40,366 nt of DNA from an uncultured Selenomonadaceae bacterium (GTDB taxonomy: Bacteria > Bacillota > Negativicutes > Selenomonadales > Selenomonadaceae): assembly GCA_905234195.1 (NCBI GenBank), contig CAJOFR010000020.1, positions 1 through 40,366 on the forward strand. The letters run 5' to 3'. Below the pieces are notes generated by a model. That model saw only the letters and a list, made by a program, of their open reading frames with translations, ran no database searches and was not told where the DNA came from. Below are positions 3,789 to 26,342 of the stretch, piece after piece. Position 1 is the stretch's first letter; each line of letters starts with the position of its first letter. Both the position numbers and the translations under genes were made by a program.

Positions 3789-3890
3789 GGCCGTCATGGA
3801 TGACGGCCCTGCCCGCATTTGGTCGCGTGATGCGACCTCTGCGGGCGATTTTTTCTTTGTTACTTTCTTTTTTCTAAAAAAAGAAAGTAA
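3789..3890 (-). repeat. Three-hairpin intergenic element, copy 1 (version A2-B-C1)
   Basis: Read on the minus strand the order is hairpin A (3890-3860, TTACTTTC...GAAAGTAA), a 13-nt linker, hairpin B (3846-3811, the invariant 36-nt core GCCCGCA...TGCGGGC with inner GGTCGC/GCGACC) and hairpin C (3808-3789, GGCCGTCAT/ATGACGGCC). It lies between the converging 3' ends of the solute-binding protein and a hybrid kinase. On the plus strand an AAGGAGG happens to precede an ATG inside C, opening a 38-codon frame; this is judged fortuitous. Confidence 0.9.
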
Positions 3891-3931
3891 ATCCAAACTA
3901 TTCGACAGATAAAAATTAAATAACTGAAAAT

Positions 3932-5995
3932 TTATTCGTTCGCGGAAATGTACGCGCTGATCGTGCCAATTAAATTCGCAATGTCGAAAGGTTTTGCAAT
4001 GTGGTCGTTCATTCCGCTTTCAATGCTCATTTTTTTATCTTCGTCGCGCGCGTTTGCACTCAACGCGATTATCGGCAAGTGTTTCGCGTCGTCACGGCTC
4101 AAGGCGCGGATAGCCCGCGTCGCCTCGTAGCCGTTCATTACCGGCATCTGAATATCCATCAAAATCAAATCGTAGTAGCCTTCAGGATTTTTCTTGACAG
4201 CGTCCACAGCGTCGCAGCCGTCGGGTACAGACTCAACCTCAAATCCAAATTCAGTCAAGACGGCTTCAGCAAGCATGCGATTAACTTCAATGTCCTCGAC
4301 GATTAAAATTTTGTGAGCTTCGTCAGATTTTTGAACTTCTGCGGCGGAAATATTCTCCTGCAAATTTTCGGCGTCGTCCGCAAATTTTAGCGGCAAGTCC
4401 ACCGTGAAAGTCGTGCCCTCTCCTTTTTTGCTCTTGACGGAAATGGAGCCGCCCATAATATCCAAAATTCTCTTCGTTATCGAAAGCCCAAGCCCCGTAC
4501 CGAGATAGCCGCTCTTCGTCGAAGTTTCTTCGCGCTCAAAAGCCTCGAACATCTTCGCGATAAATTCTTCGGACATCCCCACGCCGTTATCAATCACCGA
4601 AAATTCGTAGCGCGCATAGCCGGAATCCGAAATTTTTTTCTGCCGCGCGGTGATTGTGACTTTTCCATTTTCGGGCGTGAACTTTACGGCGTTGCTTATC
4701 AAATTTCCCATGACGCGCCGAAAACGAAGAGAATCAACGAAAATATTTTTGTTCGGTAAATTAAAATTTCTCTCCAGCGTAATTTTTTTCTCCGTCGCCT
4801 GCGGAATAAAAATATCAACAATCATATCGAGTTGCTCTTTCAGGTTGCAGACGTCCGATTTAATTTCAATGCGCTCAAAATCCAGACTGCTCATGTCAAG
4901 TAAATCGTCAATCAAGGCAAGCAAGTGGCGATTCGATTCGTCAACCTTGTCGAGATAATTTTTCAGCCGCTCCGGATTTTCCACGTACCTCTGCGCAAGT
5001 TCGGTGAAACCCATAATCGAATTCATCGGCGTCCGCAAATCGTGGGAGATATTAAAAAGAAACGCCGTCTTAATTTCGTTGGTACGTTTCTCGCGCTCAA
5101 GCTCAGTCTCCATTTTCAGCTTGGCAGTCAATTCTTTCTGAACAAGTTTAACCTGCGCGGTAATGTCGCGGTATCCAATGACGATATTATTTTTCAGGAG
5201 GTCGTCTTCAATTTTCACGATAGACATTTCAAGATAAATAATGTCGCCGTTTTCTTTTTGGCAACGATAATTTATGTTGTACGACGATTCATTCTTCAGG
5301 CGTTCGCGAATCCGACTCTCTTTAATCTCCTTGAAATAAAGTTCCCTGTCTTCGGGCATGACATATTTTTCAGCGTACGCCGGAAAAATTTCCAGCCAAT
5401 TGTATTCGCCGTCGCTGTTCGGAGAAAGTGTCTCGATAATCGAACGACAACGCTCCCCGCGCAGACGATACGGACGAATTCCCCCGCTGTCCAAGTTCAA
5501 AAGATAAATCGAATTAAATTCCACAGAAAGAGCCTCAATAATTTTTGCGCGGCGGTAATTTTCTTCGCTGGCAATGCGGTGAGCAGTCACGTCGTAAATG
5601 AAAACGTAAAAAATGTCGCCAAATTTTTTGTTGTGCGCAAATCTCCCGTAATCGTCAACCCAACGAATGCTACCGTCAAGCCGCTTTATGCGATACTCCA
5701 CGTAATCCAAATGCTTTTCGTTTTTGGCAATCTGATTTTTAATCGACAAGTCAACCGCCTCGTAGTCGTCGGGGTGAACCATTCCGCGAAAAGTATTGCC
5801 GGTCAGATTTTTAAATTCGTCAAGAGTTTTGCAACCGAAAATATCCAGCATGACGTCGTTCACGTAAAAAATTTCGCCCTCGTCGTCGGCGCGATAAATA
5901 AAAAATCCTCCAGGCATCTTCGCCGCCAATTCCGTTGCGCTCGGCAACATATCTTCAGTTAAAATTTGTTCGTTCGGGAAATTTTTTTCAAGCAT
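3932..5995 (-). CDS. Soluble hybrid sensor histidine kinase (PAS-PAS-HisKA-HATPase-REC)
   Basis: 687 residues without a membrane segment, so a cytoplasmic sensor. Order: PAS about 20-140 (FFIYRADDEGEIFYVND, then FIYDVTAHR), a second PAS-like domain about 150-285, a short coiled coil, HisKA with phospho-acceptor His318 in NISHDLRTPMN, HATPase with N-box MGNLISNAVKF, G1 DNGVGM and G2 GTGLGLS, and a receiver about 565-687 with Asp614 in LMDIQMPVMNGYEAT. It autophosphorylates on His and passes phosphate to its own receiver; an HPt partner would be needed for further relay and none is nearby. The start is supported by AAAGGAGC seven bases upstream. It follows the other kinase on the same strand with a 23-bp gap, so the two are probably co-transcribed. 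The signal is unknown. Confidence 0.93.
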   Translation of the reverse strand: MLEKNFPNEQILTEDMLPSATELAAKMPGGFFIYRADDEGEIFYVNDVMLDIFGCKTLDEFKNLTGNTFRGMVHPDDYEAVDLSIKNQIAKNEKHLDYVEYRIKRLDGSIRWVDDYGRFAHNKKFGDIFYVFIYDVTAHRIASEENYRRAKIIEALSVEFNSIYLLNLDSGGIRPYRLRGERCRSIIETLSPNSDGEYNWLEIFPAYAEKYVMPEDRELYFKEIKESRIRERLKNESSYNINYRCQKENGDIIYLEMSIVKIEDDLLKNNIVIGYRDITAQVKLVQKELTAKLKMETELEREKRTNEIKTAFLFNISHDLRTPMNSIMGFTELAQRYVENPERLKNYLDKVDESNRHLLALIDDLLDMSSLDFERIEIKSDVCNLKEQLDMIVDIFIPQATEKKITLERNFNLPNKNIFVDSLRFRRVMGNLISNAVKFTPENGKVTITARQKKISDSGYARYEFSVIDNGVGMSEEFIAKMFEAFEREETSTKSGYLGTGLGLSITKRILDIMGGSISVKSKKGEGTTFTVDLPLKFADDAENLQENISAAEVQKSDEAHKILIVEDIEVNRMLAEAVLTEFGFEVESVPDGCDAVDAVKKNPEGYYDLILMDIQMPVMNGYEATRAIRALSRDDAKHLPIIALSANARDEDKKMSIESGMNDHIAKPFDIANLIGTISAYISANE

Positions 5996-6018
5996 CTTTT
6001 TGCTCCTTTGGAGAAAAT

Positions 6019-8280
6019 TTAGTTGGGATTGCCGATAATTTTTTGCAGAGTCTCAATCAGCTGATTAATGTCAATCGGTTTCGCAACGTGCGCATTCATT
6101 CCCGCCCTGCGCGCCGCCTGCACGTCTTCGCTGAAAGCATTCGCCGTCATTGCGATAATCGGAATTTTTGCAAGCCGCGCGTCCGCAAGAGCGCGAATAT
6201 TTTTCGTGGCTTCGTAGCCGTTCATAATAGGCATTTGGATATCCATCAAAACGGCGTCGTATTCCCCAGCCTTCGACGCGGCAACTTTTTCGACCGCCTC
6301 TTTTCCGTCCGCCGCCATATCCACGACAAACCCCACGCTCGACAAAAGCATCGCGGCAATTTCACGATTAACTTCAATGTCGTCAACCAAAAGCAATTTT
6401 TTCCCGCTGAAGTCAATTTCATTTTCCGCAGAATCTTTTTCCTCTTCGTCGTCTTGAATTTCTTCGGCAAGCCGAAATTTCACGTCGATAATAAATTCCG
6501 TGCCCTTGTTCAGCTCGGTGAAAACTTTAATGTCACCTTTCATAAGGTCGACGATACTTTTTGTTATCGCCATGCCCAGCCCCGTGCCCTGAATTTTGCT
6601 GACGGTGGAAGTCCTCTCGCGCTCGAACGCCTCGAAAACTTTTTTCGCAAACTCCTGCGTCATTCCAATCCCCGTATCCTTGACGCGAATTTCATATTCG
6701 CCAAAACCGTTGGAGCCGTCATTTTTTTGTACAAGGGTGACGGAAATTTTCCCGCCTTCCGGAGTAAATTTGTAAGCGTTGCTGATAAGATTTAACAGCA
6801 CACGATTTAACCGGTGTTCGTCGCAAATGACGAACTTGTTTTTTATTTGGGAGTCGTCGACGATAAAATTAATAGTCTTCGTCTGCATTTGCGTGGCGAA
6901 CATATCACGGACGTCGACGAAAATTTGATGGATATTCGCGGGAATTTCTTCGAGCTCCATTTTTCCGTTCTCAATGCGGCTCATCTCAAGGACGTCATTA
7001 ATCAGCGAAAGAAGATGCTGGCTGGAGGCGTCGATTTTTTTCATGAACTCATGTACTCTTTTCGGAACCTCGTCGGGACAATGCGGGCGCGTACAATTTT
7101 CGCAGAGGGTGTAAAGAGATTTCGACAGCTCGACGTAACCGATAATCGCATTCATCGGCGTGCGAATGTCGTGCGAAATATTAAACAGGAACGCGGTTTT
7201 CGCCTTGCTGCTCTGTTCGGCGCGGGTCTTCGCGGTGATAAGTTCCGTCTGCTGATTTTTTAACTCTTCGCGCTGGGAAGCAATGATATCCAATTTTTCT
7301 TGAAGTTGTTTTGTGTGGAGCTTGCCGATTTTTTCATTGCGGTACTGAAAAACCGTGAACACCATTAGCACAAAAACGAACAGCACCGAAAAAATTATCA
7401 GCGCGACAATTTGCGGGCGGCTCTCCAACATTTCGGCGAAAGTCATGTTTTCGTAGCGGTGACTGATCCATTTTTTGTGGAGTTCCTCCAGGCGTCCCTC
7501 CTGTTGCATTTGGATTAGGACGGCGTTCAAATTCACGCGGAGCATCGTGTCTTCGGGGTGGAGCACCATTGAGCCGAAAACGTGGGTGACGGCGTAGCTG
7601 GGGTGGACGTCTTCGATATCAAATTCCTCAATGAAATTGTAACCGACTTGAATGGGGCAAATGGCAAATTCGTATTCGCCCGCCTTGAGTGCTTTGAAAA
7701 TAGTTTCGTAGGAATTTATGTAGCTGATTTCGTCGTCGAGACCGAGCCCGGGTACCTGGTGGAAGGAGGCGACGCGCCGCCCGTACAGATCCGCCACAGA
7801 AGAAATGCTGTTCCTCCCGTAAACGACGTACTGTTTTTCAGTCGTCGGTATCGTCGCGATAATGTCGGGGTTGTTCACGATTAAATCGGACTCCATGTTC
7901 ATGATAACTTGAAACTCGTCTTTTTCAAAAGCTCTGTTCGCCTCCGTCCATTCCATTAATTTTAAATCGAGATTCATTTGAAGGCGGTTGGCAACTTCGT
8001 TAATCAGTTCGACGTCAAGCCCCGCATATTCGCCGTTTTCGTCGACGTAGGAATAAGGTTTATAATCTATATCCGAAACAACGTGCAGAGTTTTTTTGAA
8101 ACGATTCTCCGCTTTTATTTCAACCTTCGGCGGCTCTTTGAACGTGTCAGAAGCATAGAGGTAAAAAAATACAAAAACCCCGGTCAAAATTACCGGCAAA
8201 GATATTAAAACCGAAACAGCGTTACTTTTTTTGCTGAAGAACCTCGTTTTCTCTTCCATCGTCGTCGATCGGTTATCCAT
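6019..8280 (-). CDS. Membrane hybrid histidine kinase with periplasmic SBP_bac_3 sensor
   Basis: 753 residues. A transmembrane segment (about 21-43) precedes a bacterial solute-binding family 3 domain (about 62-275: LHVVSDIDYKPYSYVDENG, GLDVELINEVANRL), the fold used to sense amino acids and similar small ligands. A second membrane helix (about 290-312) and a coiled coil lead to HisKA with His370 in NISHDIRTPMN, then HATPase (NLISNAYKFTPEGG, GTGLGMA) and a receiver with Asp680 in LMDIQMPIMNGYEAT. Between the two HisKA helices there is an insertion holding CENCTRPHC (Cys393, Cys396, Cys401, with His400), a possible metal or redox site. AAAGGAAAGG precedes the ATG. It is divergent from kdsB and is the first gene of a two-kinase unit. 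No separate response regulator lies nearby. Confidence 0.93.
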   Translation of the reverse strand: MDNRSTTMEEKTRFFSKKSNAVSVLISLPVILTGVFVFFYLYASDTFKEPPKVEIKAENRFKKTLHVVSDIDYKPYSYVDENGEYAGLDVELINEVANRLQMNLDLKLMEWTEANRAFEKDEFQVIMNMESDLIVNNPDIIATIPTTEKQYVVYGRNSISSVADLYGRRVASFHQVPGLGLDDEISYINSYETIFKALKAGEYEFAICPIQVGYNFIEEFDIEDVHPSYAVTHVFGSMVLHPEDTMLRVNLNAVLIQMQQEGRLEELHKKWISHRYENMTFAEMLESRPQIVALIIFSVLFVFVLMVFTVFQYRNEKIGKLHTKQLQEKLDIIASQREELKNQQTELITAKTRAEQSSKAKTAFLFNISHDIRTPMNAIIGYVELSKSLYTLCENCTRPHCPDEVPKRVHEFMKKIDASSQHLLSLINDVLEMSRIENGKMELEEIPANIHQIFVDVRDMFATQMQTKTINFIVDDSQIKNKFVICDEHRLNRVLLNLISNAYKFTPEGGKISVTLVQKNDGSNGFGEYEIRVKDTGIGMTQEFAKKVFEAFERERTSTVSKIQGTGLGMAITKSIVDLMKGDIKVFTELNKGTEFIIDVKFRLAEEIQDDEEEKDSAENEIDFSGKKLLLVDDIEVNREIAAMLLSSVGFVVDMAADGKEAVEKVAASKAGEYDAVLMDIQMPIMNGYEATKNIRALADARLAKIPIIAMTANAFSEDVQAARRAGMNAHVAKPIDINQLIETLQKIIGNPN

Positions 8281-8313
8281 GTTCGCCTTTCCTTTCTCAA
8301 CTTCGATTTGAAT

Positions 8314-8340
8314 ATTATAGCAGTTTTCTGTAGATTGTGC
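8314..8340 (-). promoter_or_regulatory. Probable promoter of the two-kinase unit
   Basis: On the minus strand a perfect TATAAT lies at 8319-8314, 34-39 bases upstream of the kinase ATG, preceded at about 17 nt by a poor -35 match (CTGCAC). A leader of about 25 nt with AAAGGAAAGG follows. The -10 is convincing. The weak -35 suggests an activator or an alternative factor, but this is inference. Confidence 0.5.
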
Positions 8341-8435
8341 AGAAAAAAATTAAAAGTTTTGTCAGAATAATTGCGACGTTAAAAAAGCTTGAAACATAGC
8401 CCTAAATGAAATATAATCAAATAAAAAAAAGCGAG

Positions 8436-9173
8436 ATGGAAAATTTGAAAACGATTTGCGTAATTCCCGCGCGGTATTCTTCAACGAGATTGCCGGGTAA
8501 ACCCTTGAAAGACATTTGCGGCAAGCCCATGATATGTCGTGTGTTTGAACGTGCCAAGCTTGCAAAATCTATCGCCGAAGTTATCGTGGCTACGGACGAC
8601 GAGAGAATTTTTCAGGCTGTCGAAAAAAATTTCGGGCGCTCCGTCATGACGAGAGCAGACCACAAAACGGGAACTGACAGGCTTGCCGAAGTCGCCGAAA
8701 AATTTTCTGACGTCGATTTAATTGTAAACGTGCAGGGTGACGAACCTTTAATCGAGGCGGATTTGATTGACGAGCTTGTCGCCGAGTTCGTCAAGGATGA
8801 AAATTTGCAGATGGCAACCGTCGCTACCGAGCTGCGCGAAGAAGACGAGATGAAAAATCCGAATAACGTTAAAGTTGTCGTCGACAAGTCCAATAACGCG
8901 CTTTACTTTTCGCGCTCGTTGATTCCTTATCCGCGCAACGCGGGCAGGGCGAAAGTTTTTAAACATATCGGGATTTACGCTTATCGCAGAAATTTTTTGC
9001 TTAGCTACTCTAAAATGGAGCCGACGCCGCTTGAGCAAACTGAATCGCTTGAGCAACTTCGCGCACTCGAAAACGGTTTTAAAATTCGCGTGATTAAAAG
9101 TGATTGCCGGTTCGTCGGCGTCGATACCGAAGAGGATTTGAAACTTGTCAATGAAATTTATCGCGGGCTGTAG
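8436..9173 (+). CDS. kdsB: 3-deoxy-manno-octulosonate cytidylyltransferase
   Basis: KdsB activates Kdo with CTP to CMP-Kdo, the donor for WaaA. The 245-residue product has the full family signature: VIPARYSSTRLPGKPL near the start, ATDDERI, NVQGDEPL, ALYFSRSLIPYPR, KHIGIYAYRR and the end motif GVDTEEDL. ATG 8436 gives the usual short N-terminus before VIPARY; an in-frame ATG at 8406 would add ten residues unlike the family, and neither start has a good ribosome binding site. It opens the Kdo/Lpt cluster and is divergent from the kinases. A 168-bp gap with a three-hairpin element separates it from kdsA. Confidence 0.95.
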   Translation: MENLKTICVIPARYSSTRLPGKPLKDICGKPMICRVFERAKLAKSIAEVIVATDDERIFQAVEKNFGRSVMTRADHKTGTDRLAEVAEKFSDVDLIVNVQGDEPLIEADLIDELVAEFVKDENLQMATVATELREEDEMKNPNNVKVVVDKSNNALYFSRSLIPYPRNAGRAKVFKHIGIYAYRRNFLLSYSKMEPTPLEQTESLEQLRALENGFKIRVIKSDCRFVGVDTEEDLKLVNEIYRGL

Positions 9174-9200
9174 ATTTTTTCTATTTGAAAACTTTTTAAT

Positions 9201-9303
9201 CTTCTTTTCTTTTGACCGCAAAAGAAAAGAAGCAAAAGAAAACTCGCCCGCAGAGGTCGCATCACGCGACCAAATGCGGGCAAGGCCGTCATCCATGACG
9301 GCC
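9201..9303 (+). repeat. Three-hairpin intergenic element, copy 2 (A1-B-C1)
   Basis: Hairpin A 9201-9232 (CTTCTTTTCTTTT ... AAAAGAAAAGAAG; loop variant ACCG), linker 9233-9245, invariant hairpin B 9246-9281, two-base spacer, hairpin C 9284-9303 (GGCCGTCAT/ATGACGGCC). It starts 28 nt after the kdsB stop and ends 38 nt before the kdsA start, leaving room for the kdsA ribosome binding site. Confidence 0.93.
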
Positions 9304-9335
9304 ACCCCCCTCTTGAAAAATTTTTTTGGGAGTGA

Positions 9336-10163
<828 letters not shown>

Positions 10164-10171
10164 GGTCGAAT

Positions 10172-11140
10172 ATGATTAAGGACAGAGCGATTGAAACTTT
10201 GAAGATAGAGGCGGCGGCGATTGAAAATCTGATTCCGCGCATAGACGACGAGTTTGTCAACGCGGTGCAGGAGATTTTGAAGTGTCGCAGCCGTGTCGTC
10301 GTCACGGGTATGGGAAAATCCGGACATGTCGGCAGAAAAATCGCCGCGACTTTTGCGTCGACGGGGACGCCCGCTTTTTTCATGCACCCCGCCGAAGCTT
10401 ATCACGGGGATTTGGGAATGATAACCGAAAACGATATTGTTATCGCGATTTCAAATAGCGGGGAGTCTTCGGAGATTGTAAACATTCTTCCGATAATTCG
10501 CAGGATAGGCGCGAAAATTATTGCCATGTGCGGAAGAAAAACTTCTTCGCTCGGCAAGAACGCGGATTACTTTATTAACATTGGCGTTGAGCGCGAAGCG
10601 TGTTCGTTCGGTCTGGCTCCCACCGCCTCGACGACTGCGACTCTTGCAATGGGCGACGCGATTGCTATGGCGTTGATGGACAAAAAAAATTTTACTTCGC
10701 AGGATTACGCGCTGTTTCATCCGGGCGGCGCGCTCGGCAGAAAACTTTTGCTCACTGTCGGCGACATCATGCACAAGGACGAGGAAAACCCGATTGTCAA
10801 AGTTGGTGCGACTGTCAAAGACGCGCTCTTCGAGATGACGGCTAAAGGATTGGGCGCGGTATCTGTCGTCGACGAGAAAAATAAATTCGTCGGGATTGTC
10901 ACGGACGGAATTATTCGCCGCGCGCTGGAGAAGGACAAAAATTTTATCGACGAACCTGTTGAACATATCATGCACAGGGACGCTTTGATTATCAGCGCGG
11001 AAAAACTTGCGGCGGCGGCTCTTTCCGTCATGGAAAAACACAAGCCGCGTCCTGTTACTGTTTTGCCGGTCATTGACGAAAAAAATATTCCGGTCGGCAT
11101 GATTCACTTGACGGATCTTTTGCGGCAAGGCGTTGTCTAG
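10172..11140 (+). CDS. kdsD: Arabinose-5-phosphate isomerase (SIS + two CBS domains)
   Basis: KdsD/KpsF converts ribulose-5-phosphate to arabinose-5-phosphate, the substrate of KdsA. The 322-residue product has a SIS sugar-isomerase domain (VVVTGMGKSGHVGRKIAATFASTG, HPAEAYHGDLG, ISNSGESSEI, FGLAPTASTT, FHPGGALGRKL) and two C-terminal CBS domains (VGDIMHKDEENP and EHIMHRDALI). ATG 10172 has GAGGT five bases upstream, overlapping the kdsA stop region; an in-frame GTG at 10160 lies inside kdsA. Tight packing with kdsA implies one transcript. Confidence 0.95.
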   Translation: MIKDRAIETLKIEAAAIENLIPRIDDEFVNAVQEILKCRSRVVVTGMGKSGHVGRKIAATFASTGTPAFFMHPAEAYHGDLGMITENDIVIAISNSGESSEIVNILPIIRRIGAKIIAMCGRKTSSLGKNADYFINIGVEREACSFGLAPTASTTATLAMGDAIAMALMDKKNFTSQDYALFHPGGALGRKLLLTVGDIMHKDEENPIVKVGATVKDALFEMTAKGLGAVSVVDEKNKFVGIVTDGIIRRALEKDKNFIDEPVEHIMHRDALIISAEKLAAAALSVMEKHKPRPVTVLPVIDEKNIPVGMIHLTDLLRQGVV

Positions 11141-11180
11141 AGATTAGTGGTTAGTGGTTAGGGTTAGGGAAAAATTTTTC
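11141..11180. repeat. GATTAG/GGTTAG-rich spacer with palindrome
   Basis: Tandem degenerate units (GATTAGT, GGTTAGT, GGTTAGG, GTTAGGG) run from 11143 to 11168, followed by the perfect palindrome GGAAAAATTTTTCC (11167-11180). The gap lies between kdsD and kdsC. Confidence 0.5.
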
Positions 11181-11208
11181 CGGCCGCTGAAATAGGAAGG
11201 AAGTTAAA

Positions 11209-11781: not shown

Positions 11782-11794
11782 GTAGGGGAGCAAA

Positions 11795-13320: not shown

Positions 13321-13322
13321 TT

Positions 13323-14237: not shown

Positions 14238-14240
14238 ATT

Positions 14241-15055: not shown

Positions 15056-15075
15056 CGAAGGGAGCGTAGTTTTGG

Positions 15076-16170: not shown

Positions 16171-16198
16171 GATTATTTTTTTAATCATAATTGTTGGA

Positions 16199-16299
16199 CT
16201 TCTTTTCTTTTGGCGCAAAAGAAAAGAAGCAAAAGAAAACTGCCCGCAGAGGTCGCATCACGCGACCAAATGCGGGCAAGGCCGTCATCCATGACGGCC
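16199..16299 (+). repeat. Three-hairpin intergenic element, copy 3 (A1-B-C1)
   Basis: Hairpin A 16199-16229 (loop GGCG), 12-nt linker, invariant hairpin B 16242-16277, two-base spacer, hairpin C 16280-16299. It lies 29 nt after the permease stop and 53 nt before the murC-ddl start. Confidence 0.93.
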
Positions 16300-16352
16300 A
16301 CCCCAACGATAAAATTGGAGAAGTTTATAGAATTTTTTGGGAGGAAAAAAGT

Positions 16353-18683: not shown

Positions 18684-18697
18684 CGGGGGGTTTTTAA

Positions 18698-19936
18698 ATG
18701 AAAAAGACAATAGCAGTTGCGGGGCTCGGTTACGTCGGGCTGTCGCTTGCCACACTGCTTGCGCAGAAGAATAAAATTTTGGCGGTGGACGTCTCGCCGG
18801 AAAAAATTAATCTCGTCAACGCCCGCCAATCTCCCATTCGTGATGAATATATCGAAAAATATTTCGCTGAAAAAAATTTAGACTTGACGGCGACGGCTGA
18901 CGCGCAGGAGGCTTACCGCGCGGCTGACTTCGTTATTATCGCCGTCCCGACGAACTACGACCCGCGCAAAAATTATTTCGACACTTCCGTTGTTCAGTCC
19001 GTCATTAAGCTCGTCACAAAGATTAATCCCGCCGCGCAGATGATTATTAAAAGCACGATACCCGTTGGTTTCACGAAGACCATGCGCGAAAAATTTTCCA
19101 CTACAAAAATTATGTTCAGTCCGGAGTTTCTGCGCGAATCAAAAGCTTTGTACGATAACCTTTACCCTTCGCGAATCATTGTCGGCACGGATTTAAATGA
19201 CGCCGCACAAGTTGCCGCCGCAGAAAATTTTGCCGCGCTCCTGCAAGAAAATTCCTTGAAAGAAAATGTTCCCATTCTCGTTATGGGTCTCACCGAAGCG
19301 GAGGCGGTTAAACTTTTCGCGAATACTTATCTTGCGTTGCGCGTCGCTTACTTCAACGAGCTGGACACTTATGCCGAAATGAAGGGGCTGGATACACAGA
19401 GCATTATCAAAGGAATTTGTTTTGATCCGCGTATCGGCGACCACTACAATAATCCTTCCTTCGGCTACGGCGGCTACTGCCTCCCGAAGGACACGAAACA
19501 ACTTCTTGCAAATTATCAAGACGTGCCGGAAAATTTAATTGAGGCTATAGTCAACAGCAACCGCACTCGAAAAGATTTTATTGCCGGCAGAGTTCTGGAG
19601 TTGTCGGGGGCTTACGAGCTGAATGAAAATTATTCCGCCGAACGCGAACACGAAGTTATTGTCGGCGTTTATCGTCTCGCCATGAAAACCGGTAGCGATA
19701 ATTTTCGGCAGTCTTCCATTCAGGGGATTATGAAGAGAATCAAATCGAAGGGCGCGACTGTCATTATTTACGAGCCTTCGCTGAAAGACGGCACGACTTT
19801 TTTTGGGAGCAGGGTCGTGAATAATCTTGAAGAGTTTAAAAAATTAAGCCGCTGTATAATTACCAATCGTTACGAGAGCGCGCTGGACGATGTTGCCGAA
19901 AAAGTTTACACGCGCGATCTTTTCCGCCGCGACTAA
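18698..19936 (+). CDS. ugd: UDP-glucose 6-dehydrogenase family protein
   Basis: 412 residues. The N-terminal NAD-binding fold has [17 protein letters not shown] and [10 protein letters not shown]; the middle has [24 protein letters not shown] and the central helix [15 protein letters not shown]; the catalytic Cys261 is in [10 protein letters not shown]; the UDP-binding C-terminal domain follows. The enzyme oxidises UDP-glucose to UDP-glucuronate for capsule, O-antigen or other surface sugars. It follows murC-ddl by 14 bp with a GGGGGG ribosome binding site and closes the envelope cluster. Other nucleotide-sugar dehydrogenases share these motifs, so the exact substrate is probable rather than certain. 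Confidence 0.9.
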
Positions 19937-19999
19937 TTTAGTGGCAAGGGACAAGGGATTAGAAAAATTCGCTCGTCACTAAAAAAAGGAGTGATTAAA

Positions 20000-20275
20000 A
20001 TGAAAGACATGCCCGCAAATGCAATAAGGGACGCCGTCGAAAGTTATCGCCGCCCGCCCGGAAAAATGCGCTCGCAACAGGAAATTCTTGCGCGCTATAA
20101 TCAGGCGTTGATGTCTTATCGTGAACTTTGTTTTTCTTCCGGCGACGTTCATCAGCAAAAACTTTCGACGTATGCAGAAATAAAAGTTCTCGGTTGGGTG
20201 CTCGGCAAGCCCGAAAAAGATATTATTAAGGACGTCAGCGAAAATTCCAACAGGATGCCTTTTGGAACTTTTTAG
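20000..20275 (+). CDS. Unrecognised small soluble protein (91 aa)
   Basis: ATG 20000 has AAAGGAG eight bases upstream, a strong translation signal. The product is charged, has no signal peptide or membrane segment, and is predicted largely helical (IRDAVESYRRPPGKMRSQQE, then ARYNQALMSYRELCF). A VLGKPEKDIIKDV segment near the end could pack as a helix. I do not recognise a family. It sits after a GATTAG-type spacer and 15 bp before another unknown gene, with which it is probably co-transcribed. Confidence 0.7.
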   Translation: MKDMPANAIRDAVESYRRPPGKMRSQQEILARYNQALMSYRELCFSSGDVHQQKLSTYAEIKVLGWVLGKPEKDIIKDVSENSNRMPFGTF

Positions 20276-20290
20276 CCGAAAAATTTTGTC

Positions 20291-20815
20291 ATGGATAATT
20301 TCAAACTTACCGAGAGCGAAGAAAAAAATTCCCAGCCGTTTTCTTACGGATTTTATGCGGCGGTCGCACTGATTTTTTTCGTTATGGCTTTTGCGTCTGT
20401 GGAACTTTTTAAATCGGACGTCGCGCCGAGTTTTCACGCGGAAATTTTTCCCACCGACGCGATAAGTTTCATAAAGGACGACGCGCCGATTAGACTTGCT
20501 GACGGAGATTACGAACTTGCCATGCCCGCGCAGGGAACTTTCGTCAAGGGTATCGCGCCGATGATGCTCGTCGAAGTCGACGGCGAACTTTATCCGCTGA
20601 ACATTGCGGACGATTCTGTTTTGCCACGACAGGGAAAAGTTTTGCCGGCAAGAATTTTGTTTGGTTTCACTTCCCCGCACGCCGAAAATAAATTGACTTA
20701 CGACGAAAAGCACGGAGAAGACCCCGTCGAATCTTACAGCAAGAAGGCGCGATATTATTTGCATGTCGAAAATGGATTCGGGCAGGTTCAGCGCAGATAC
20801 ATTGTGCAAAAATAA
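20291..20815 (+). CDS. Unrecognised single-pass membrane protein (174 aa)
   Basis: The product has a short cytoplasmic N-terminus, one transmembrane helix (about 18-37, YGFYAAVALIFFVMAFASVE) and a C-terminal extracytoplasmic domain rich in beta-type sequence (LADGDYELAMPAQGTFVKGI, LVEVDGELYPLN). This suggests a periplasmic domain anchored in the inner membrane. The ATG lacks a good ribosome binding site, so translation may be coupled to the gene just upstream. No family is recognised and no function is proposed. Confidence 0.7.
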   Translation: MDNFKLTESEEKNSQPFSYGFYAAVALIFFVMAFASVELFKSDVAPSFHAEIFPTDAISFIKDDAPIRLADGDYELAMPAQGTFVKGIAPMMLVEVDGELYPLNIADDSVLPRQGKVLPARILFGFTSPHAENKLTYDEKHGEDPVESYSKKARYYLHVENGFGQVQRRYIVQK

Positions 20816-20840
20816 AAGTGCCCGCGAAAAAAAATTTTAC

Positions 20841-20869
20841 TTGACGTATTTAAAAACATATGATAAACT
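20841..20869 (+). promoter_or_regulatory. Promoter of the tRNA cluster
   Basis: TTGACG at 20841-20846 and TAAACT at 20864-20869 are separated by exactly 17 bases, placing transcription start near 20876, about 37 bases before the first tRNA. Confidence 0.65.
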
Positions 20870-20912
20870 TTGCAACTGTCAGCCGGATTGCCGGAAGGCG
20901 AAAAGGTAATGA

Positions 20913-20988
<76 letters not shown>

Positions 20989-20991
20989 AAT

Positions 20992-21067
20992 GCTGATGTA
21001 GCTCAGTCGGCAGAGCGTATCCTTGGTAAGGATAAGGTCACCAGTTCAATCCTGGTCATCAGCTCCA
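20992..21067 (+). tRNA. tRNA-Thr (GGT)
   Basis: Acceptor stem GCTGATG/CATCAGC, anticodon stem TATCC/GGATA with loop TTGGTAA (anticodon GGT), T arm ACCAG-TTCAATC-CTGGT, and encoded CCA. It begins three bases after the initiator tRNA. Confidence 0.95.
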
Positions 21068-21069
21068 CC

Positions 21070-21143
21070 GGCGGCATAGCTCAGTTGGCTAGAGCATTCG
21101 GTTCATACCCGGAGTGTCCCTGGTTCAAATCCAGGTGCCGCCA
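21070..21143 (+). tRNA. tRNA-Met elongator-type (CAT)
   Basis: Acceptor GGCGGCA/TGCCGCC, loop TTCATAC (anticodon CAT), T arm CCTGG-TTCAAAT-CCAGG. The GGTTCATACCC anticodon arm resembles the Bacillus elongator Met tRNA; a lysidine-modified Ile tRNA is less likely but not excluded. CCA is not encoded (the genome reads CTA after the discriminator), unlike the two upstream tRNAs. Confidence 0.92.
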
Positions 21144-21162
21144 CTAATTCTAGAAGTTGACT

Positions 21163-21186
21163 CCCCTGTTGCAGGGGTTTTATTTT
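21163..21186 (+). terminator. Intrinsic terminator after the tRNA cluster
   Basis: CCCCTG (21163-21168), a 3-base loop, CAGGGG (21172-21177), then TTTTATTTTT. It ends just before the rpmG ribosome binding site (AAGGAGG), so it is likely to be leaky and to let some transcripts reach rpmG. Confidence 0.75.
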
Positions 21187-21201
21187 TAAGGAGGTCGGAA
21201 G

Positions 21202-21351
21202 ATGCGTACTAATATCACGCTGTCCTGCACTGTGTGCAAAAATCGCAACTACAGGACGAACAAAAACAAAAAGAATACCCCTGACAGGATCGAATTGAAA
21301 AAATATTGCAAGTTCTGCAAGAAACACACCGCGCACAAGGAAACTAAATAA
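21202..21351 (+). CDS. rpmG: 50S ribosomal protein L33
   Basis: 49 residues with the L33 zinc-ribbon cysteines (Cys9, Cys12, Cys36, Cys39) and the family core [27 protein letters not shown] lies upstream of the ATG. The rpmG-secE-nusG order matches most bacteria. Confidence 0.97.
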
Positions 21352-21369
21352 TTTTGTAAGGGGCGTTGG

Positions 21370-21582
21370 GTGTTGGCAGAAAAAAATGACACTGTCGAAA
21401 AAAAAGGCGCAATGCAATTTTTGAGGGAAGTCCGCACGGAACTGAATAAGGTTTCATGGCCCACAAAAAATGAGTTGATTTCTTACACGAGCGTCGTCGG
21501 ATTGACTGTGGTTATAGTTTGCGCACTGATTTGGGGGTGTGACACTGCTTTTGCAAAGTTGTTTCGCGTGATACTCGGCTGA
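21370..21582 (+). CDS. secE: Preprotein translocase subunit SecE
   Basis: 70 residues with the short one-helix form of SecE: an amphipathic segment FLREVRTELNKVSWPTKNEL, then a transmembrane helix (SVVGLTVVIVCALIWG). It clamps SecY in the Sec translocon. Start is GTG 21370 or the adjacent TTG 21373, after AAGGGG at 21358-21363. Confidence 0.95.
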   Translation: MLAEKNDTVEKKGAMQFLREVRTELNKVSWPTKNELISYTSVVGLTVVIVCALIWGCDTAFAKLFRVILG

Positions 21583-21596
21583 AAGGAAATTTTTTT

Positions 21597-22145
21597 ATGG
21601 AACAGAAAGCAAACGATTCGGATAGGAAGACTAAGCGGGCGTGGTACGTCATTCACACTTATTCCGGTTACGAAAATAAAGTCAAAGCCAATCTTGATAA
21701 AAAAGTTGTCGCGCAGGATCTTGGCGACGTTATTTTTGATGTCGTGGTGCCAATGCGTATGGAGTCCGAGTTTAAAGACGGCAAGCGCAGGACTGTTCAG
21801 AGAAAAATTTTCCCCGGTTACGTCATGATTGATATGATTGTCAATAACTATTCGTGGTTTGTTGTCAGGAATACGCAGGGTGTCACCGGATTTGTCGGCG
21901 CGGAAAAGGAGCCTATTCCTTTGACGAAGGAGGAGGCTGAAAGGGTTTTGATTGAACTTTCGGAGAGCCGCCCCGAAGATGCGCCTATCGGTTTTGAAAT
22001 CAACGACCGTGTAAGGATTATTTCCGGTTTGTTTGAAAATCGCGTCGCTATCGTTAAAAGTATTGATAATGAGAGAAGGCGCGTTAAGGTTTTGGTTGAA
22101 AATGCTCCCGTCGATTTGGACGTGAGCCAGCTTGAAAAGATGTAA
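21597..22145 (+). CDS. nusG: Transcription termination/antitermination factor NusG
   Basis: 182 residues: NGN domain (RAWYVIHTYSGYENKVKANL, FPGYVMIDM, VRNTQGVTGFVG) and a C-terminal KOW domain (INDRVRIISGLFENRVAIVKS). It binds RNA polymerase to aid elongation and links to ribosomes or Rho. AAAGGA precedes the ATG, 14 bp after secE. Confidence 0.97.
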   Translation: MEQKANDSDRKTKRAWYVIHTYSGYENKVKANLDKKVVAQDLGDVIFDVVVPMRMESEFKDGKRRTVQRKIFPGYVMIDMIVNNYSWFVVRNTQGVTGFVGAEKEPIPLTKEEAERVLIELSESRPEDAPIGFEINDRVRIISGLFENRVAIVKSIDNERRRVKVLVENAPVDLDVSQLEKM

Positions 22146-22155
22146 ATTTCTTTTC

Positions 22156-22190
22156 TAGGGATTAGTTTTTGGGGACAAGGGTTTAGAGAA
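22156..22190. repeat. GATTAG-type spacer
   Basis: CTAGGGATTAG, then GGGGACAAGGGTTTAGAG, resembling the other GATTAG/AAGGG spacers. It lies between nusG and hairpin element copy 4. Confidence 0.4.
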
Positions 22191-22231
22191 TTCTTTCTTC
22201 TAAAAAATTCTTTCCTCTTTTGAATGAACAT

Positions 22232-22322
22232 CTTCTTTTCTTTTGGCGCAAAAGAAAAGAAGCAAAAGAAAACTGCCCGCAGAGGTCGCATCACGCGACC
22301 AAATGCGGGCCCATCCTTGGGC
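22232..22322 (+). repeat. Three-hairpin intergenic element, copy 4 (A1-B-shortened C2)
   Basis: Hairpin A 22232-22262, 12-nt linker, invariant hairpin B 22275-22310. C is the second version, with its 5' arm cut back so that a short GCCCA/TGGGC stem (22309-22322) overlaps the end of B by two bases. The element splits nusG from rplK, genes that are usually close together. Confidence 0.9.
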
Positions 22323-22374
22323 GGCGGCAGTACCTTAATTTGAGTTTGTGATAATATCGAAAGGAGGTGTGAAC

Positions 22375-22800
22375 GTGGCAAAAAAAGTTACTAAGGTTGT
22401 GAAGTTGCAAGTTCCGGCAGGTAAGGCTACACCCGCGCCGCCGGTAGGTCCTGCGCTCGGTCAGGCGGGCGTGAATATCATGGCGTTCGTCAAAGAGTTC
22501 AACGACCGTACCGCGTCGCAGGCAGGTTTGATTATTCCTGTCGAAATTTCGGTTTACGAGGACAGATCTTTTACTTTCATAACGAAGACTCCGCCGGCTC
22601 CGGTGTTGTTGAAAAAAGCGGCAGGTATCGAAAAAGGTTCGGGAGAGCCCAATAAAAATAAAGTCGCTAAACTTCCGCGCGCCAAAGCTCAGGAAATCGC
22701 CGAATTGAAAATGAAAGACCTTAACGCCGGTTCAATCGAGGCGGCTACCCGCATGATTGAAGGCACCGCGCGTAGCATGGGCATTGAGATTGTCGCTTAA
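22375..22800 (+). CDS. rplK: 50S ribosomal protein L11
   Basis: 141 residues with [23 protein letters not shown] at the N-terminus (binding the GTPase centre and factors) and the C-terminal RNA-binding domain [23 protein letters not shown] 22375 is the start, with AAGGAGG seven bases upstream; an in-frame start at 22348 lies ahead of the ribosome binding site. Confidence 0.97.
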
Positions 22801-22857
22801 GGCGGCGGGACAATGTGGGAGATTCTTTCGTTTGTACCACGAGGAGGAATTTTTTTA

Positions 22858-23541
22858 ATGGCTAAAAGAGGTAAAAAGTATCGCGCGGCGGCAGAACAAA
22901 TCGAAGCCGGCAAGATTTACGAAGTCGACGGGGCTATTGAGTTGGTCAAGAAGACCGCGACGGCGAAATTTGACGAGACGATTGAAATGCATGTTCGTCT
23001 TGGCGTCGACCCGAAATACAATGACCAGCAAGTTCGCGGCGCAGTCGTCCTGCCGAACGGCACCGGCAAGTCTAAGCGCGTTTTGGTTTTTGCTAAGGGC
23101 GAAAAAGTTCAGGACGCCGAACAGGCGGGCGCGGATTATGTCGGCTCTGATGATCTCGTTGAAAAAATCAAGGGTGGCTGGTTTGATTTCGACGTTGCGA
23201 TTGCCACGCCGGATATGATGGGCGTCGTCGGGCGTCTCGGTAAACTTTTGGGACCGCGCGGGCTCATGCCGAACCCGAAACTCGGTACCGTTACGCCGGA
23301 TCTTCCGAAGGCTATCGCCGAACAAAAAGCCGGTAAGATTGAGTACCGTACCGACAAGGCGGGAAATATTCATTGCCCAATCGGCAAGGCTTCGTTTGAA
23401 GATGCGAAACTCAAGGAAAATTATCAGACGTTGCTTGATACGTTGATTCGCGTCAAGCCGGCGGCAGCTAAGGGGCAATACGTCAAGGCTATCACTCTTA
23501 GCGCGACAATGGGACCCGGCGTGCCGGTCGTCCTTCCTTGA
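22858..23541 (+). CDS. rplA: 50S ribosomal protein L1
   Basis: 227 residues: [21 protein letters not shown], the domain II block [21 protein letters not shown] and [14 protein letters not shown], ending [15 protein letters not shown]1 forms the mobile stalk near the E site and often represses its own operon; no specific operator could be picked out here. GAGGAGG lies upstream of ATG 22858. Confidence 0.97.
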
Positions 23542-23562
23542 TTTGAAAATTTGAAAATAATT

Positions 23563-23667
23563 TTGACTGTAGACAACAGGTTCGGCTTGCCGATTAAATT
23601 ACCTGTCGAGGTCGGGATTTTACCGTTAGGAAATTTCTCCGATTGTCTATGGTCGGGGATTTTTTTG
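23563..23667 (+). ncRNA. L10 leader with transcription attenuator
   Basis: The rplA-rplJ gap carries the Firmicutes L10-leader pattern: TGTAGACAACAGG, then a nested perfect hairpin TCGGC-TT-GCCGA (23582-23593), then ACCTGTCGAGGT. The outer stem is ACAGGT (23576-23581) with ACCTGT (23601-23606). It is followed by an intrinsic terminator: CTCCGAT (23637-23643) with GTCGGGG (23652-23658) and a run of T. In this leader class, binding of the L10-L7/L12 complex switches off rplJL; here termination is the likely mechanism. Confidence 0.85.
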
Positions 23668-23681
23668 TGGGAGGTGAAATT

Positions 23682-24227
23682 GTGGGAGTTACTCCGAAAA
23701 AAGAGGCTGTAGTTGCCGAAATTAAAGGTTGGTTGGCAGATGCAAAAGTCGTCGTCGTGACGAGCTACAAAGGTTTGAATGTTGCTACCGATACTGAAAT
23801 GCGTCGTGAGATGCGCGCCGCCGGTGTTACTTATAAAGTCGTGAAAAATACGATGCTTAGAATCGCCGCGAAGGAACTCAATATCGAAGGGCTTGAAACT
23901 CATCTCGAAGGCACAACGGCTATTGCTTTTTCTGCTGAAGATGCCGTCACTCCGGCGAAAGTTCTCTGCGACTTCATTAAGAAAAATAAACTCGAAGATC
24001 CCGGGATTTTGACGATTAAAGCCGGTATCCTTGACGGGAAAATTATTGAACCGAAGGACGTTAAGGCTCTTGCCGCGTTGCCCAGCCGCGAAGAACTTAT
24101 CGCGAAACTGCTTGGCAGCATGAACGCTCCGATTGCTAACACCGTCGGTACTCTGTCCGCGATTATTCGTAATGCCGTTGGCGTTATCGATGCTCTTCGT
24201 GAAAAGAAGGCAAAGGAAGCGGCTTGA
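23682..24227 (+). CDS. rplJ: 50S ribosomal protein L10
   Basis: 181 residues: VTPKKEAVVAEIKGWLADA, VVTSYKGLNVATDTEMRREM, YKVVKNTMLRIAAKE, and a C-terminal helix for L7/L12 dimers. L10 anchors the stalk and is the sensor protein for the upstream leader. GTG 23682 is the start, with GGAGGTG five bases upstream; an earlier in-frame ATG at 23649 lies inside the attenuator. Confidence 0.96.
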   Translation: MGVTPKKEAVVAEIKGWLADAKVVVVTSYKGLNVATDTEMRREMRAAGVTYKVVKNTMLRIAAKELNIEGLETHLEGTTAIAFSAEDAVTPAKVLCDFIKKNKLEDPGILTIKAGILDGKIIEPKDVKALAALPSREELIAKLLGSMNAPIANTVGTLSAIIRNAVGVIDALREKKAKEAA

Positions 24228-24256
24228 CTAGGGATTAGGGATTAGAGATTAGTTTT
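24228..24256. repeat. GATTAG tandem spacer
   Basis: Three near-tandem units (GGGATTAG, GGGATTAG, AGATTAG) directly after the rplJ stop and next to hairpin element copy 5. Confidence 0.5.
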
Positions 24257-24262
24257 TTTGAT

Positions 24263-24364
24263 TTACTTTCTTTTTTTAGAAAAAAGAAAGTAACAAAGAA
24301 AAAATCGCCCGCAGAGGTCGCATCACGCGACCAAATGCGGGCAAGGCCGTCATCCATGACGGCC
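24263..24364 (+). repeat. Three-hairpin intergenic element, copy 5 (A2-B-C1)
   Basis: Hairpin A in the second version 24263-24293 (TTACTTTC...GAAAGTAA), 13-nt linker, invariant hairpin B 24307-24342, two-base spacer, hairpin C 24345-24364. It separates rplJ and rplL, whose products are needed in a roughly 1:4 ratio, by 178 bp. Confidence 0.93.
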
Positions 24365-24405
24365 ACCGTGCAAACTCATTTGAAATTTTTGGAGGTAAAT
24401 TTGTA

Positions 24406-24777
24406 ATGACTAAAGAAGAAATTATTGAAGCTATAGGCTCAATGACTGTTTTGGAACTTTCCGAACTCGTGAAAGCTATGGAAGAAAAATTCGGCGTGTC
24501 CGCAGCGGCTCCTGTTGCTGTGGCGGCGGCGGCTCCTGTCGCTGAAGCGGCGGCTGAAGAAGAAAAAACCGAATTCGATGTTATCCTTGCTGAAATCGGT
24601 CAAGAAAAAATTAAGGTTATTAAGGCTGTCCGTGAGGCAACCGGTCTCGGCTTGAAAGAGGCTAAAGCTCTCGTCGACGGCGCGCCCGCTCCCGTCAAAG
24701 AAAAAATTTCTAAAGCTGACGCTGAAGCTCTCAAAGCGAAACTCGAAGAAGTCGGCGCGAAAGTCGAGATTAAATAA
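24406..24777 (+). CDS. rplL: 50S ribosomal protein L7/L12
   Basis: 123 residues: N-terminal dimerisation helix pair ([20 protein letters not shown]), Ala-rich hinge, and the C-terminal factor-binding domain [20 protein letters not shown] with [18 protein letters not shown] lies upstream of ATG 24406. The next gene is miaB instead of rpoB. Confidence 0.97.
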
Positions 24778-24805
24778 TTCAGTAGCGAATAAAATTTTTG
24801 ATAAG

Positions 24806-24840
24806 GTGGTGTCGGTTGAAAAATCGACGCCGCTTTTTGT
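24806..24840 (+). terminator. Strong intrinsic terminator after rplL
   Basis: A 12-bp stem GTGGTGTCGGTT/AATCGACGCCGC with G-U pairs, closed by a GAAA tetraloop (24818-24821), followed by TTTTTGTTT. It ends the ribosomal-protein transcript immediately before miaB. Confidence 0.85.
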
Positions 24841-24849
24841 TTGAAGACT

Positions 24850-26169
24850 ATGGATAAAAAACTTAAAATTTTAACTTACGGTTGCCAAATGAATGTCGCC
24901 GAGTCCGAACGAATGGCGGGACAACTCCAGGCTATCGGCTACAGCTTGACGGAAGATTTTGCGGCGGCGGATTTAATTTTGCTGAACACCTGTTGCGTTC
25001 GCGGCACCGCCGAAGAAAAAATTTACGGGAAAATCGGTGAAATTAAACGCCTCAAAATGCAAAAGCCCTCCTTGATTATCGGCGTCGTCGGTTGCCTTGC
25101 TCAAAAGGACGGCGAAAATTTAATCAGTCGTTCGCCGCATTTGGATTTTGTTTTGGGCACGGGGCAGCGCGGCGAATTGGCTAACGTCGTGAAAAGTCTT
25201 GAGGAGGAGCGTCGTCATTTCGTCGACGTTTCGAATGTCAGCGGCGTGGTTGACGACGAGAATATTTTTCCGATTCGCGCGGGCAGTGTTTCGACGTTCG
25301 TGCCGATTATGTACGGCTGTAATAATTTTTGCACGTATTGCATTGTTCCTTACGTGCGCGGCAGGGAGCGCAGTCGTCTACCCGAAGAAATTTTCGCCGA
25401 AATTAAAAACGCCGTCGCCTCCGGTTTTAAGGAAGTCACCTTGCTTGGGCAAAACGTGAATTCTTACGGAAGAGATCACCGGCTGAAAAATTTTGCCGAG
25501 CTTCTGAACGACGTCAATAAAATTTCCGGACTTGAGCGCGTTCGTTTCATGACGAGCCACCCGAAAGATTTATCCGACGAGCTGATTGACGCCATTGCCG
25601 GCGGAGAAAAAATTTGTGAGCACATACATTTGCCGATTCAGCACGGCAGCAACAAAATTTTGCAAAAGATGAATCGCAGCTACACCGTCGAAAAATATCT
25701 TGCGCTTGTCGAAAAATTGCGCGCGGCCGTCCCCGATATAAGCTTGACGACAGATTTAATTGTGGGCTTTCCGGACGAGACTGAAGAAGATTTTCAGACG
25801 ATGCTGGATTTTTTGCGCGAAGTTAAATTCGACGCGGCGTTCACTTTCATTTACTCGAAGAGGAGCGGCACTCCTGCGGCGAAGTTCCCGAATCAAGTCG
25901 ACGAGGAAATTAAACACCGCCGCATTTACGAGCTGATTGAGTTGCAGAATAAAATCAGCCTTGAAAAAAATTTGGAGTTAGACGGAAAAATTTTTGAAGT
26001 TCTCGTCGAAGGCGCGAGCAAGACCGACAAAAATATTTTCACGGGGCGGACGCGGCAGAATAAGCTTGTACTTTTTCCGCACGGCTCGGAAAAAATTGGT
26101 GACTTGATTCGCGTCAAGATAACTCAAGCTCAAACTTGGCTCTTAAAAGGGATTAGAGATTTTATTTGA
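24850..26169 (+). CDS. miaB: tRNA-2-methylthio-N6-dimethylallyladenosine synthase MiaB
   Basis: 439 residues. The UPF0004 domain supplies three cysteines for an auxiliary iron-sulfur cluster (Cys12 in YGCQMN, Cys48 in NTCC, Cys82 in VVGC). The radical SAM domain has the CxxxCxxC motif at Cys157, Cys161 and Cys164 (YGCNNFCTYC), then VRGRERSR and LLGQNVNSYG, and a C-terminal TRAM domain follows. It adds the methylthio group to i6A37 of tRNAs. ATG 24850 is preferred over in-frame TTG 24841, which abuts the terminator's T-run; neither has a strong ribosome binding site. mutS/mutL, which often follow, are absent. Confidence 0.93.
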   Translation: MDKKLKILTYGCQMNVAESERMAGQLQAIGYSLTEDFAAADLILLNTCCVRGTAEEKIYGKIGEIKRLKMQKPSLIIGVVGCLAQKDGENLISRSPHLDFVLGTGQRGELANVVKSLEEERRHFVDVSNVSGVVDDENIFPIRAGSVSTFVPIMYGCNNFCTYCIVPYVRGRERSRLPEEIFAEIKNAVASGFKEVTLLGQNVNSYGRDHRLKNFAELLNDVNKISGLERVRFMTSHPKDLSDELIDAIAGGEKICEHIHLPIQHGSNKILQKMNRSYTVEKYLALVEKLRAAVPDISLTTDLIVGFPDETEEDFQTMLDFLREVKFDAAFTFIYSKRSGTPAAKFPNQVDEEIKHRRIYELIELQNKISLEKNLELDGKIFEVLVEGASKTDKNIFTGRTRQNKLVLFPHGSEKIGDLIRVKITQAQTWLLKGIRDFI

Positions 26170-26179
26170 AGAGGAAAGT

Positions 26180-26275
26180 GGCCGCCCAAGGATGGGCGGC
26201 CGCCCGCATTTGGTCGCGTGATGCGACCTCTGCGGGCAGTTTTCTTTTGCTTCTTTTCTTTTGCGCCAAAAGAAA
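26180..26275 (-). repeat. Three-hairpin intergenic element, copy 6 (eroded A1-B-C2)
   Basis: On the minus strand: hairpin A (26275-26250) whose outer arm is degraded, 12-nt linker, invariant hairpin B (26237-26202), then directly hairpin C in the full second version (26201-26180, GGCCGCCCATCC...GGGCGGCC). It lies between the converging ends of miaB and the araC-type gene. Confidence 0.9.
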
Positions 26276-26342
26276 TGCTAGATTCAAAAGAGGAAAAAAT
26301 TTTGGAAGAAAAAAAATCTTACCGCTTATCCCTTGAAAGCCG

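Follow-up and report, generated by a model that had tools for sequence, protein, structure and literature searches.

The stretch analysed here, hereafter the window, comprises the 40,366 nucleotides (nt) of contig CAJOFR010000020.1 from an uncultured Selenomonadaceae bacterium (assembly GCA_905234195.1), and the subject of this study is a repeated intergenic element of about 100 nt within it. Six such elements, each with the order hairpin A, linker, hairpin B, and hairpin C, had been predicted from the letters of the window, and all six were present, in that order, at the positions listed below. In the A-first orientation, the element opens with A, made of a pyrimidine arm, a short loop, and a purine arm, and continues with a purine linker, the 36-nt B, and C. 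This orientation lies on the plus strand in four of the six copies and on the minus strand in two.

3789..3890, minus (A-first strand), copy 1: C 3789-3808, B 3811-3846, linker 3847-3859, A 3860-3890; in a convergent gene pair
9201..9303, plus, copy 2: A 9201-9232, linker 9233-9245, B 9246-9281, C 9284-9303; in a co-directional gene pair
16199..16299, plus, copy 3: A 16199-16229, linker 16230-16241, B 16242-16277, C 16280-16299
22232..22322, plus, copy 4: A 22232-22262, linker 22263-22274, B 22275-22310, C remnant 22311-22322 without its 5' arm
24263..24364, plus, copy 5: A 24263-24293, linker 24294-24306, B 24307-24342, C 24345-24364; in the rplJ-rplL gap
26180..26275, minus (A-first strand), copy 6: C 26180-26201, B 26202-26237, linker 26238-26249, A 26250-26275 without its outer end; in a convergent gene pair

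Hairpin B did not differ by a single letter among the six window copies. The flanking genes, which had been described as unrelated, were unlike in position and frame, and the family search named only two of them, rplJ and rplL. The fold z-scores of three window copies, one of which was folded on both strands, ranged from -7.6 to -10. Furthermore, a scan of the window with covariance model R2 (built from 77 copies of 23 genomes in the C-first orientation) detected the six copies at 83 to 105 bits, and gave six weak opposite-strand matches of 16 to 25 bits as well.

Linker, stems, and loops of the element

The original prediction described three hairpins. Hairpins A, B, and C were all found, but this description misses a third strand. 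Read C-first, the linker has a pattern such as T4-C-T4, and the pyrimidine arm of A next to it has one such as C-T4-C-T4. A linker that replaces the arm should carry its run lengths in the same order, whereas a third strand lying on the purine arm should carry them mirrored. Among 49 asymmetric elements, 35 were exact mirrors, 14 were off by one base, and none was direct, by which the linker was ruled out as a direct repeat or a strand-swap partner. The mirrored types included 6,3/3,6; 5,4/4,5; 4,5/5,4; 3,5/5,3; 3,4/4,3; and 4,3/3,4. For instance, the T-run pattern 6,3 of A in copy 5 is mirrored as 3,6 by the linker. When the elements were counted by genome and type, 31 of 41 were exact mirrors (permutation mean 8.6, maximum 18 in 20,000), and the runs adjoining the turn agreed in 41/41. 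The mirror test scored 151 of the 166 parsed elements. In about 12 of the 15 unscored rows, hairpin A had been paired with the flank of the wrong side; the other three were genuine elements in which parsing had truncated the linker or the arm, and one of these (L098) was a mirror by eye.

With this mirrored linker, A amounts to more than a hairpin alone. We know of no two-strand pairing that accounts for the mirror relation; it points instead to a foldback triple helix, like those of the known bacterial intrastrand triplex repeats. The relation provides three successive blocks that could form one triplex within a single strand, which is what characterises an intrastrand triplex motif. That the linker mirrors the pyrimidine arm of A is new. 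As judged from these sequence comparisons, the linker is very probably the third strand of a selected foldback triple helix.

The layout C-B-linker-A was kept across genera despite letter changes. In 77 sequences from 23 genomes, with relatedness not removed, two-sided changes were observed in 25 of the 32 base pairs (377 cells); the shuffles gave a mean of 99 and none of 500 reached the observed value, and slid controls gave at most 93. The bases were paired in 94.9% of the cells across the 77 sequences. For the elements lying between pgk and tpiA alone, two-sided changes were found in 11 of 32 pairs (0/500 shuffles; 12 of 13 sequences). The pairs of 148 elements comprised 3373 Watson-Crick, 7 G-T, 3 A-C, and 8 others. 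Those of the pgk-tpiA elements comprised 334 Watson-Crick, 5 G-T, 8 A-C, and 15 others, and the non-canonical ones were mostly due to a few misaligned rows; hairpin C was shifted in three sequences of alignment A5 and was scored as unpaired in them. With so few wobbles, G-U asymmetry did not favour either strand as the working one.

The loop of hairpin C, read on the C-first strand, contained GGA in 128 of 129 elements. The high-affinity consensus of Csr/Rsm proteins is given, in the passages available from a published study, as an ANGGAX hexaloop sitting directly on the stem (PMC4005645). Hairpin C had exactly this arrangement, as C-ANGGAX-G, in 124/129 elements: 63/64 in the genome of the window and 61/65 in other genomes. 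These counts leave out 37 of the 166 elements, in which the linker was unreadable or C was not intact. The loop was conserved over 26 different 5'-arm strings and 24 genomes, with 64 elements coming from the genome of the window. The 77 rows of alignment A3 were picked among copies with GGA in loop C; since the rows were selected on that loop, A3 and R2 are no evidence for it.

In the genome of the window, csrA lies immediately 3' of fliW, and its product has Leu4 and Arg44, which we take to be the RNA-binding residues of CsrA. The gene was found in 28/28 complete element-bearing genomes versus 62/71 element-free genomes (Fisher p 0.06). In addition, two csrA matches were obtained in 17 of the 22 genomes of genus g21 (G142 to G163), and one in most other genomes. 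A Csr function of the element is possible but less likely than not; it would agree with the loop, the csrA gene, and the strand on which the stronger triplex is predicted.

Copies in the genome and among relatives

The assembly of the window's genome (G000) comprises 2.09 Mb in 47 contigs. A 15-nt piece of B had 85 exact occurrences in it. Model R1 gave at least 137 matches at E<=0.01, 12 of which overlapped a better opposite-strand match, and the distinct copies numbered at least 125, all at E<=7.5e-8. Accordingly, the expectation of hundreds of copies was borne out in that the copies are many, but the count stands at 125 or more in an assembly that is 88% complete. The density had been put at about one per 7 kb; the genome-wide average was about one per 17 kb, and the window is a dense spot. 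Moreover, the 36-nt B, which had been called an invariant core, is invariant within one subfamily only. A second subfamily, with the inner B stem GATTGC/GCAATC, was represented by 11/11 of the extra own-genome copies fetched (L189 to L199), which were drawn from about 40 copies without the exact 15-nt piece. In other species, the letters of B differed at most stem positions. The copies were near-identical inside one genome, and the stems were species-specific.

Model R2, used with strict filters, matched 85 of the 189 genomes of the bacterial family, apparently Selenomonadaceae. By genus, the positive genomes were distributed as g1 (the genus of the window) 57/66, g21 17, g22 6, g14 2, g29 2, and g9 1. 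Class-wide, 86 of 380 genomes were matched. If these 380 include all 189 family genomes, the rate outside the family is 1/191, and that one match was weak and came from a genome with 6% contamination. Selenomonas ruminantium WCT3 is a named strain with an element match. One hit (L073) was dropped as a chance match in coding sequence. The element is thus not confined to the six loci of the window, as copies occur throughout the genome and in relatives.

No match at gathering score to the elements was found in Rfam, either in the window or at four further loci; the four matches of the window at this score were three tRNAs and the L10 leader. At E<=10, copy 5 had only weak matches below the gathering scores, among them TwoAYGGAY over A and the linker (18.9 bits against a gathering score of 43) and PrrB_RsmZ over C (9.7 bits against 44). 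These were treated as chance matches; the two families are in clan CL00106. The layout had been noted as unfamiliar, and no described family was found for it in Rfam or in the open-licence PubMed Central literature. The elements almost certainly constitute a structured family, and the comparisons give good support for its being distinct, three-module, and under selection.

Damage was scored in 84 copies of the window's genome, three further copies being cut by contig ends. Among the 41 damaged copies, 39 had their break at the end facing the higher contig coordinates; it fell in hairpin C in 24 plus-strand copies and in hairpin A in 15 minus-strand copies. The truncations were read as assembly errors because contig orientation should be arbitrary, and the truncated ends, including those of the window at 22311-22322 (copy 4) and 26250-26275 (copy 6), are probably assembly artefacts. 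Biological decay of these copies was considered and dropped, since the breaks fell at one contig end whatever module was there. Such a high-end bias among the repeat copies of G000 is a sign of gap-closing error.

Genomic placement and mobility

For 83 copies of the window's genome, genes were called on both sides. The settings were convergent in 33 and divergent in 10 (p 0.0006, with no baseline of all intergenic regions), and co-directional with the genes along the A-first strand in 27 and against it in 13. Seven contexts were called intra-ORF (open reading frame) by a simple gene caller, and only the window case was inspected; an ORF start called at 16191 would span copy 3 and is probably too early. 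The copies favour the 3' ends of genes. A transcription terminator, possibly bidirectional, would make use of such convergent pairs. It would also make sense of the C-first strand, where the GC-rich hairpin B precedes the T-rich linker, and of the T run after C in some copies. Moreover, two of the 13 terminator-like sites in 21500-28000 belong to the element, at hairpin C in copy 6 and at hairpin A in copy 4. However, 9.9 such sites were expected in these 6.5 kb, five T within 15 nt followed only 14 of 58 intact C hairpins (82 of 83 copies entered), and elements lie between the co-directional genes of pgk-tpiA and rplJ-rplL. A terminator is considered very improbable.

A single R2 match was obtained in twelve genomes. 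Seven of them belong to g21 and g29, and in 7/7 the element sits in the pgk-tpiA gap, with the genes of L232 named from Pfam; the other five (G058, G065, G076, G092, and G099) belong to g1. The pgk-tpiA site was surveyed in 32 genomes, namely the 30 best TPI matches together with G185 and G187. The element was present in 13, in A-first sense and about 6 to 12 nt 3' of pgk as measured by eye. Twelve genomes were element-free with a gap of 27 to 40 nt, three had other inserts, three had fused genes, and one was unscored. The pgk and tpiA genes are fused in one open frame in the three g1 genomes read (L273, L276, and L277, from G000, G077, and G059), and most g1 genomes listed have an open frame of about 650 codons over TPI. 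In g21, the pgk-tpiA gap also holds a second family of REP-like palindromes, AAGCCTTCCCC...GGGGAAGGTGCCCC... (L254, L257, L259, L260, and L264); it follows the element, except in L259, where it stands alone.

In the rplJ-rplL gap, the element was found in 2 of the 28 genus loci with both genes found (names by Pfam). The ribosomal protein L10 leader (RF00557) of the window, at 23549-23674, lies upstream of rplJ and near copy 5. Many elements have arrays of degenerate 8-mers in inverted orientation next to them, TTAGGGAT-like to one side and ATCCCTAA-like to the other; examples are window 24228-24262, and L129 and L124 at rplJ-rplL. The 8-mers were enriched in 159.6 kb of own-genome loci (36 versus 14.7 in shuffles), and array-like inverted repeats were also seen in relatives, at an element-free site.

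The two gene gaps could indicate an intercistronic or 3' untranslated region (UTR) element of the mRNA in A-first sense, which would hold off 3' exonucleases and set the balance between the upstream and downstream gene products, as REPs do. The position shortly 3' of pgk in 13 genomes of two genera, the rplJ-rplL location in two genomes, and the A-first sense of most co-directional settings are in agreement with such a role. However, it leaves the mirror linker and the conserved loops unexplained, and the pgk-tpiA site was empty in 12 of the 32 genomes. We regard this role as unlikely.

A resemblance to REP/BIME elements had also been proposed. The element is short, palindromic, intergenic, and present in many copies, as expected, but neither of the REP tags, GTAG or CGTC, is characteristic of it. 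Within 6 nt, GTAG was found before C in 7/128 elements and before A in 0/128; CGTC was found before A in 1/128 and before C in 0/128. No RAYT gene was found linked to the elements, in agreement with the original prediction. Y1_Tnp (PF01797) was matched in 22/85 element-bearing versus 50/104 element-free genomes, many of which were incomplete. The remaining 63 of the 85 element-bearing genomes had no Y1_Tnp match; flanking by elements was checked for the genome of the window only. The sole match there was an IS200/IS605-type TnpA fragment followed by a TnpB gene (L075 7073-8420), and no element was found on contig C37, which carries this fragment. In the same locus, four similar carboxylesterase-like tandem genes lie at L075 198-6581; the first is a Pfam COesterase and the others are alike by eye. 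A REP/BIME family moved by RAYT would suit the short, palindromic, extragenic, high-copy character of the element. Its lack of either tag, the lower frequency of PF01797 in element-bearing than in element-free genomes, and the nature of the only own-genome match make this explanation hardly credible.

Another explanation is a selfish mobile element of single-stranded DNA, whose hairpins and triplex would be recognised by some transposase or by replication-coupled copying, without gain for the host and tolerated at 3' ends. The likeness of copies within a genome, their species-specific stems, the presence of the element at only some pgk-tpiA and rplJ-rplL sites, and the almost purely Watson-Crick stems all favour it. 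Furthermore, of the 13 copies placed in two genomes, 12 had the A-first strand as leading strand (7/7 of G146 and 6/19 of G143 being placed, with gene orientation uncorrected). However, this bias was weak in the genome of the window, where 25 copies were leading, 17 lagging, and 45 uninformative. The two ends of the element are unrelated hairpins, and no target duplication or terminal inverted repeat, as would mark a MITE, was seen by eye; filled and empty pgk-tpiA and rplJ-rplL sites differ too much for duplication to be judged in this way. No linked gene was found, and the loop conservation and the retention at pgk-tpiA suggest a host role. A purely selfish element is possible, but on balance we do not expect it.

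Proposed mechanism and known systems

The explanation that we consider best as a whole, with slightly less than even confidence, is a family-specific, dispersed, REP-like extragenic element with a foldback triplex, the C-first RNA of which would work as a docking site or sink for CsrA. It builds on the pairing covariation, the three-strand covariation, the loop conservation, the placement, and the presence of csrA in the genome, all of which were observed. We infer that the element is transcribed, is bound by CsrA, protects 3' ends, and spreads. The single-stranded unit would fold into hairpin C, hairpin B, and a foldback triple helix at the far end, with the linker lying in the groove of hairpin A to make the third strand. 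Read C-first, this third strand is made of pyrimidines and would run parallel to the purine arm of A, with T/U on A-T/U and usually one C on G-C. The working form would be the C-first transcript, in which hairpin C, and B in some species, may present CsrA with a GGA loop of the Csr/Rsm type, and the triplex may protect the 3' end from exonucleases. Copies in 3' UTRs would be stabilised CsrA docking sites and jointly a CsrA sink, and the copies would spread inside genomes. That more than 100 dispersed RNA copies, with a Csr-type hexaloop on C, in some species a GGA loop on B too, and a selected 3' U-A-U triple helix, would amount to a genome-wide CsrA sink appears rather doubtful to us.

Several observations weigh against this explanation. 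At pgk-tpiA, the site conserved best, the Csr-type strand is antisense in 13/13 occupied genomes, and in the genome of the window the A-first strand is sense in 27/40 co-directional settings (p 0.04). The loop of B is GUGAN rather than GGA in 106/129 elements, and NGGAN in 23/129. The elements were found with R1, the sequence part of which covers C, and this may favour GGA loops. The presence of csrA tells little, because it was found in 167 of the 189 family genomes. Wobble, which is expected in RNA, is nearly absent from the stems, and selection at the DNA level or recent copying fits equally. In addition, C+ on G-C makes only a weak triple when the pH is neutral.

A third strand that shifts in register with its hairpin across many species is the type of evidence that established RNA secondary structures. 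If the triplex is true, such a structure would here have phylogenetic support in a bacterial repeat for the first time, judging from open-licence PubMed Central papers. The element is abundant and small and occurs in the named strain Selenomonas ruminantium WCT3, which makes the predicted triplex, CsrA binding, and any effects at pgk-tpiA directly testable. Moreover, pgk-tpiA is a single-copy site, where function is separable from spread.

The element shares features with several known systems. Pneumococcal BOX elements are modular, with the order boxA-boxB-boxC, and are dispersed intergenic repeats like the element; no common sequence or triple-helix layout is known, and the two were set apart by description only. 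REP, BIME, and REPIN sequences are, like the element, short, palindromic, and extragenic, occur in tens to hundreds of copies, and often lie 3' of genes. In Csr/Rsm-binding RNAs such as RsmZ, the stem of a hairpin directly bears an ANGGAX hexaloop, as it does in C of the element. Unlike these RNAs, the element has one or two such loops per unit and many dispersed copies, and it gave no gathering-score match in Rfam.

Intrastrand triplex motifs are not known to us to be under natural selection as triplexes. In the available parts of the source, such motifs (TMECO of E. coli; the ITxF database) were found by pattern search and shown in vitro, and the main text of the paper has no words starting with Selenomonas, Negativicutes or Firmicutes (PMC4666352). 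According to the same parts, their topology is that of the A-first element, with a pyrimidine stem, short loop, purine stem, short turn, and purine third strand, and in some species there are many repeats per genome, as for the element (PMC4666352). The studied motif is G/C-rich, whereas the element is A/T-rich. Unlike the motifs as described there, the element is fused to two more conserved hairpins, and the run lengths of its three strands shift together between species (PMC4666352).

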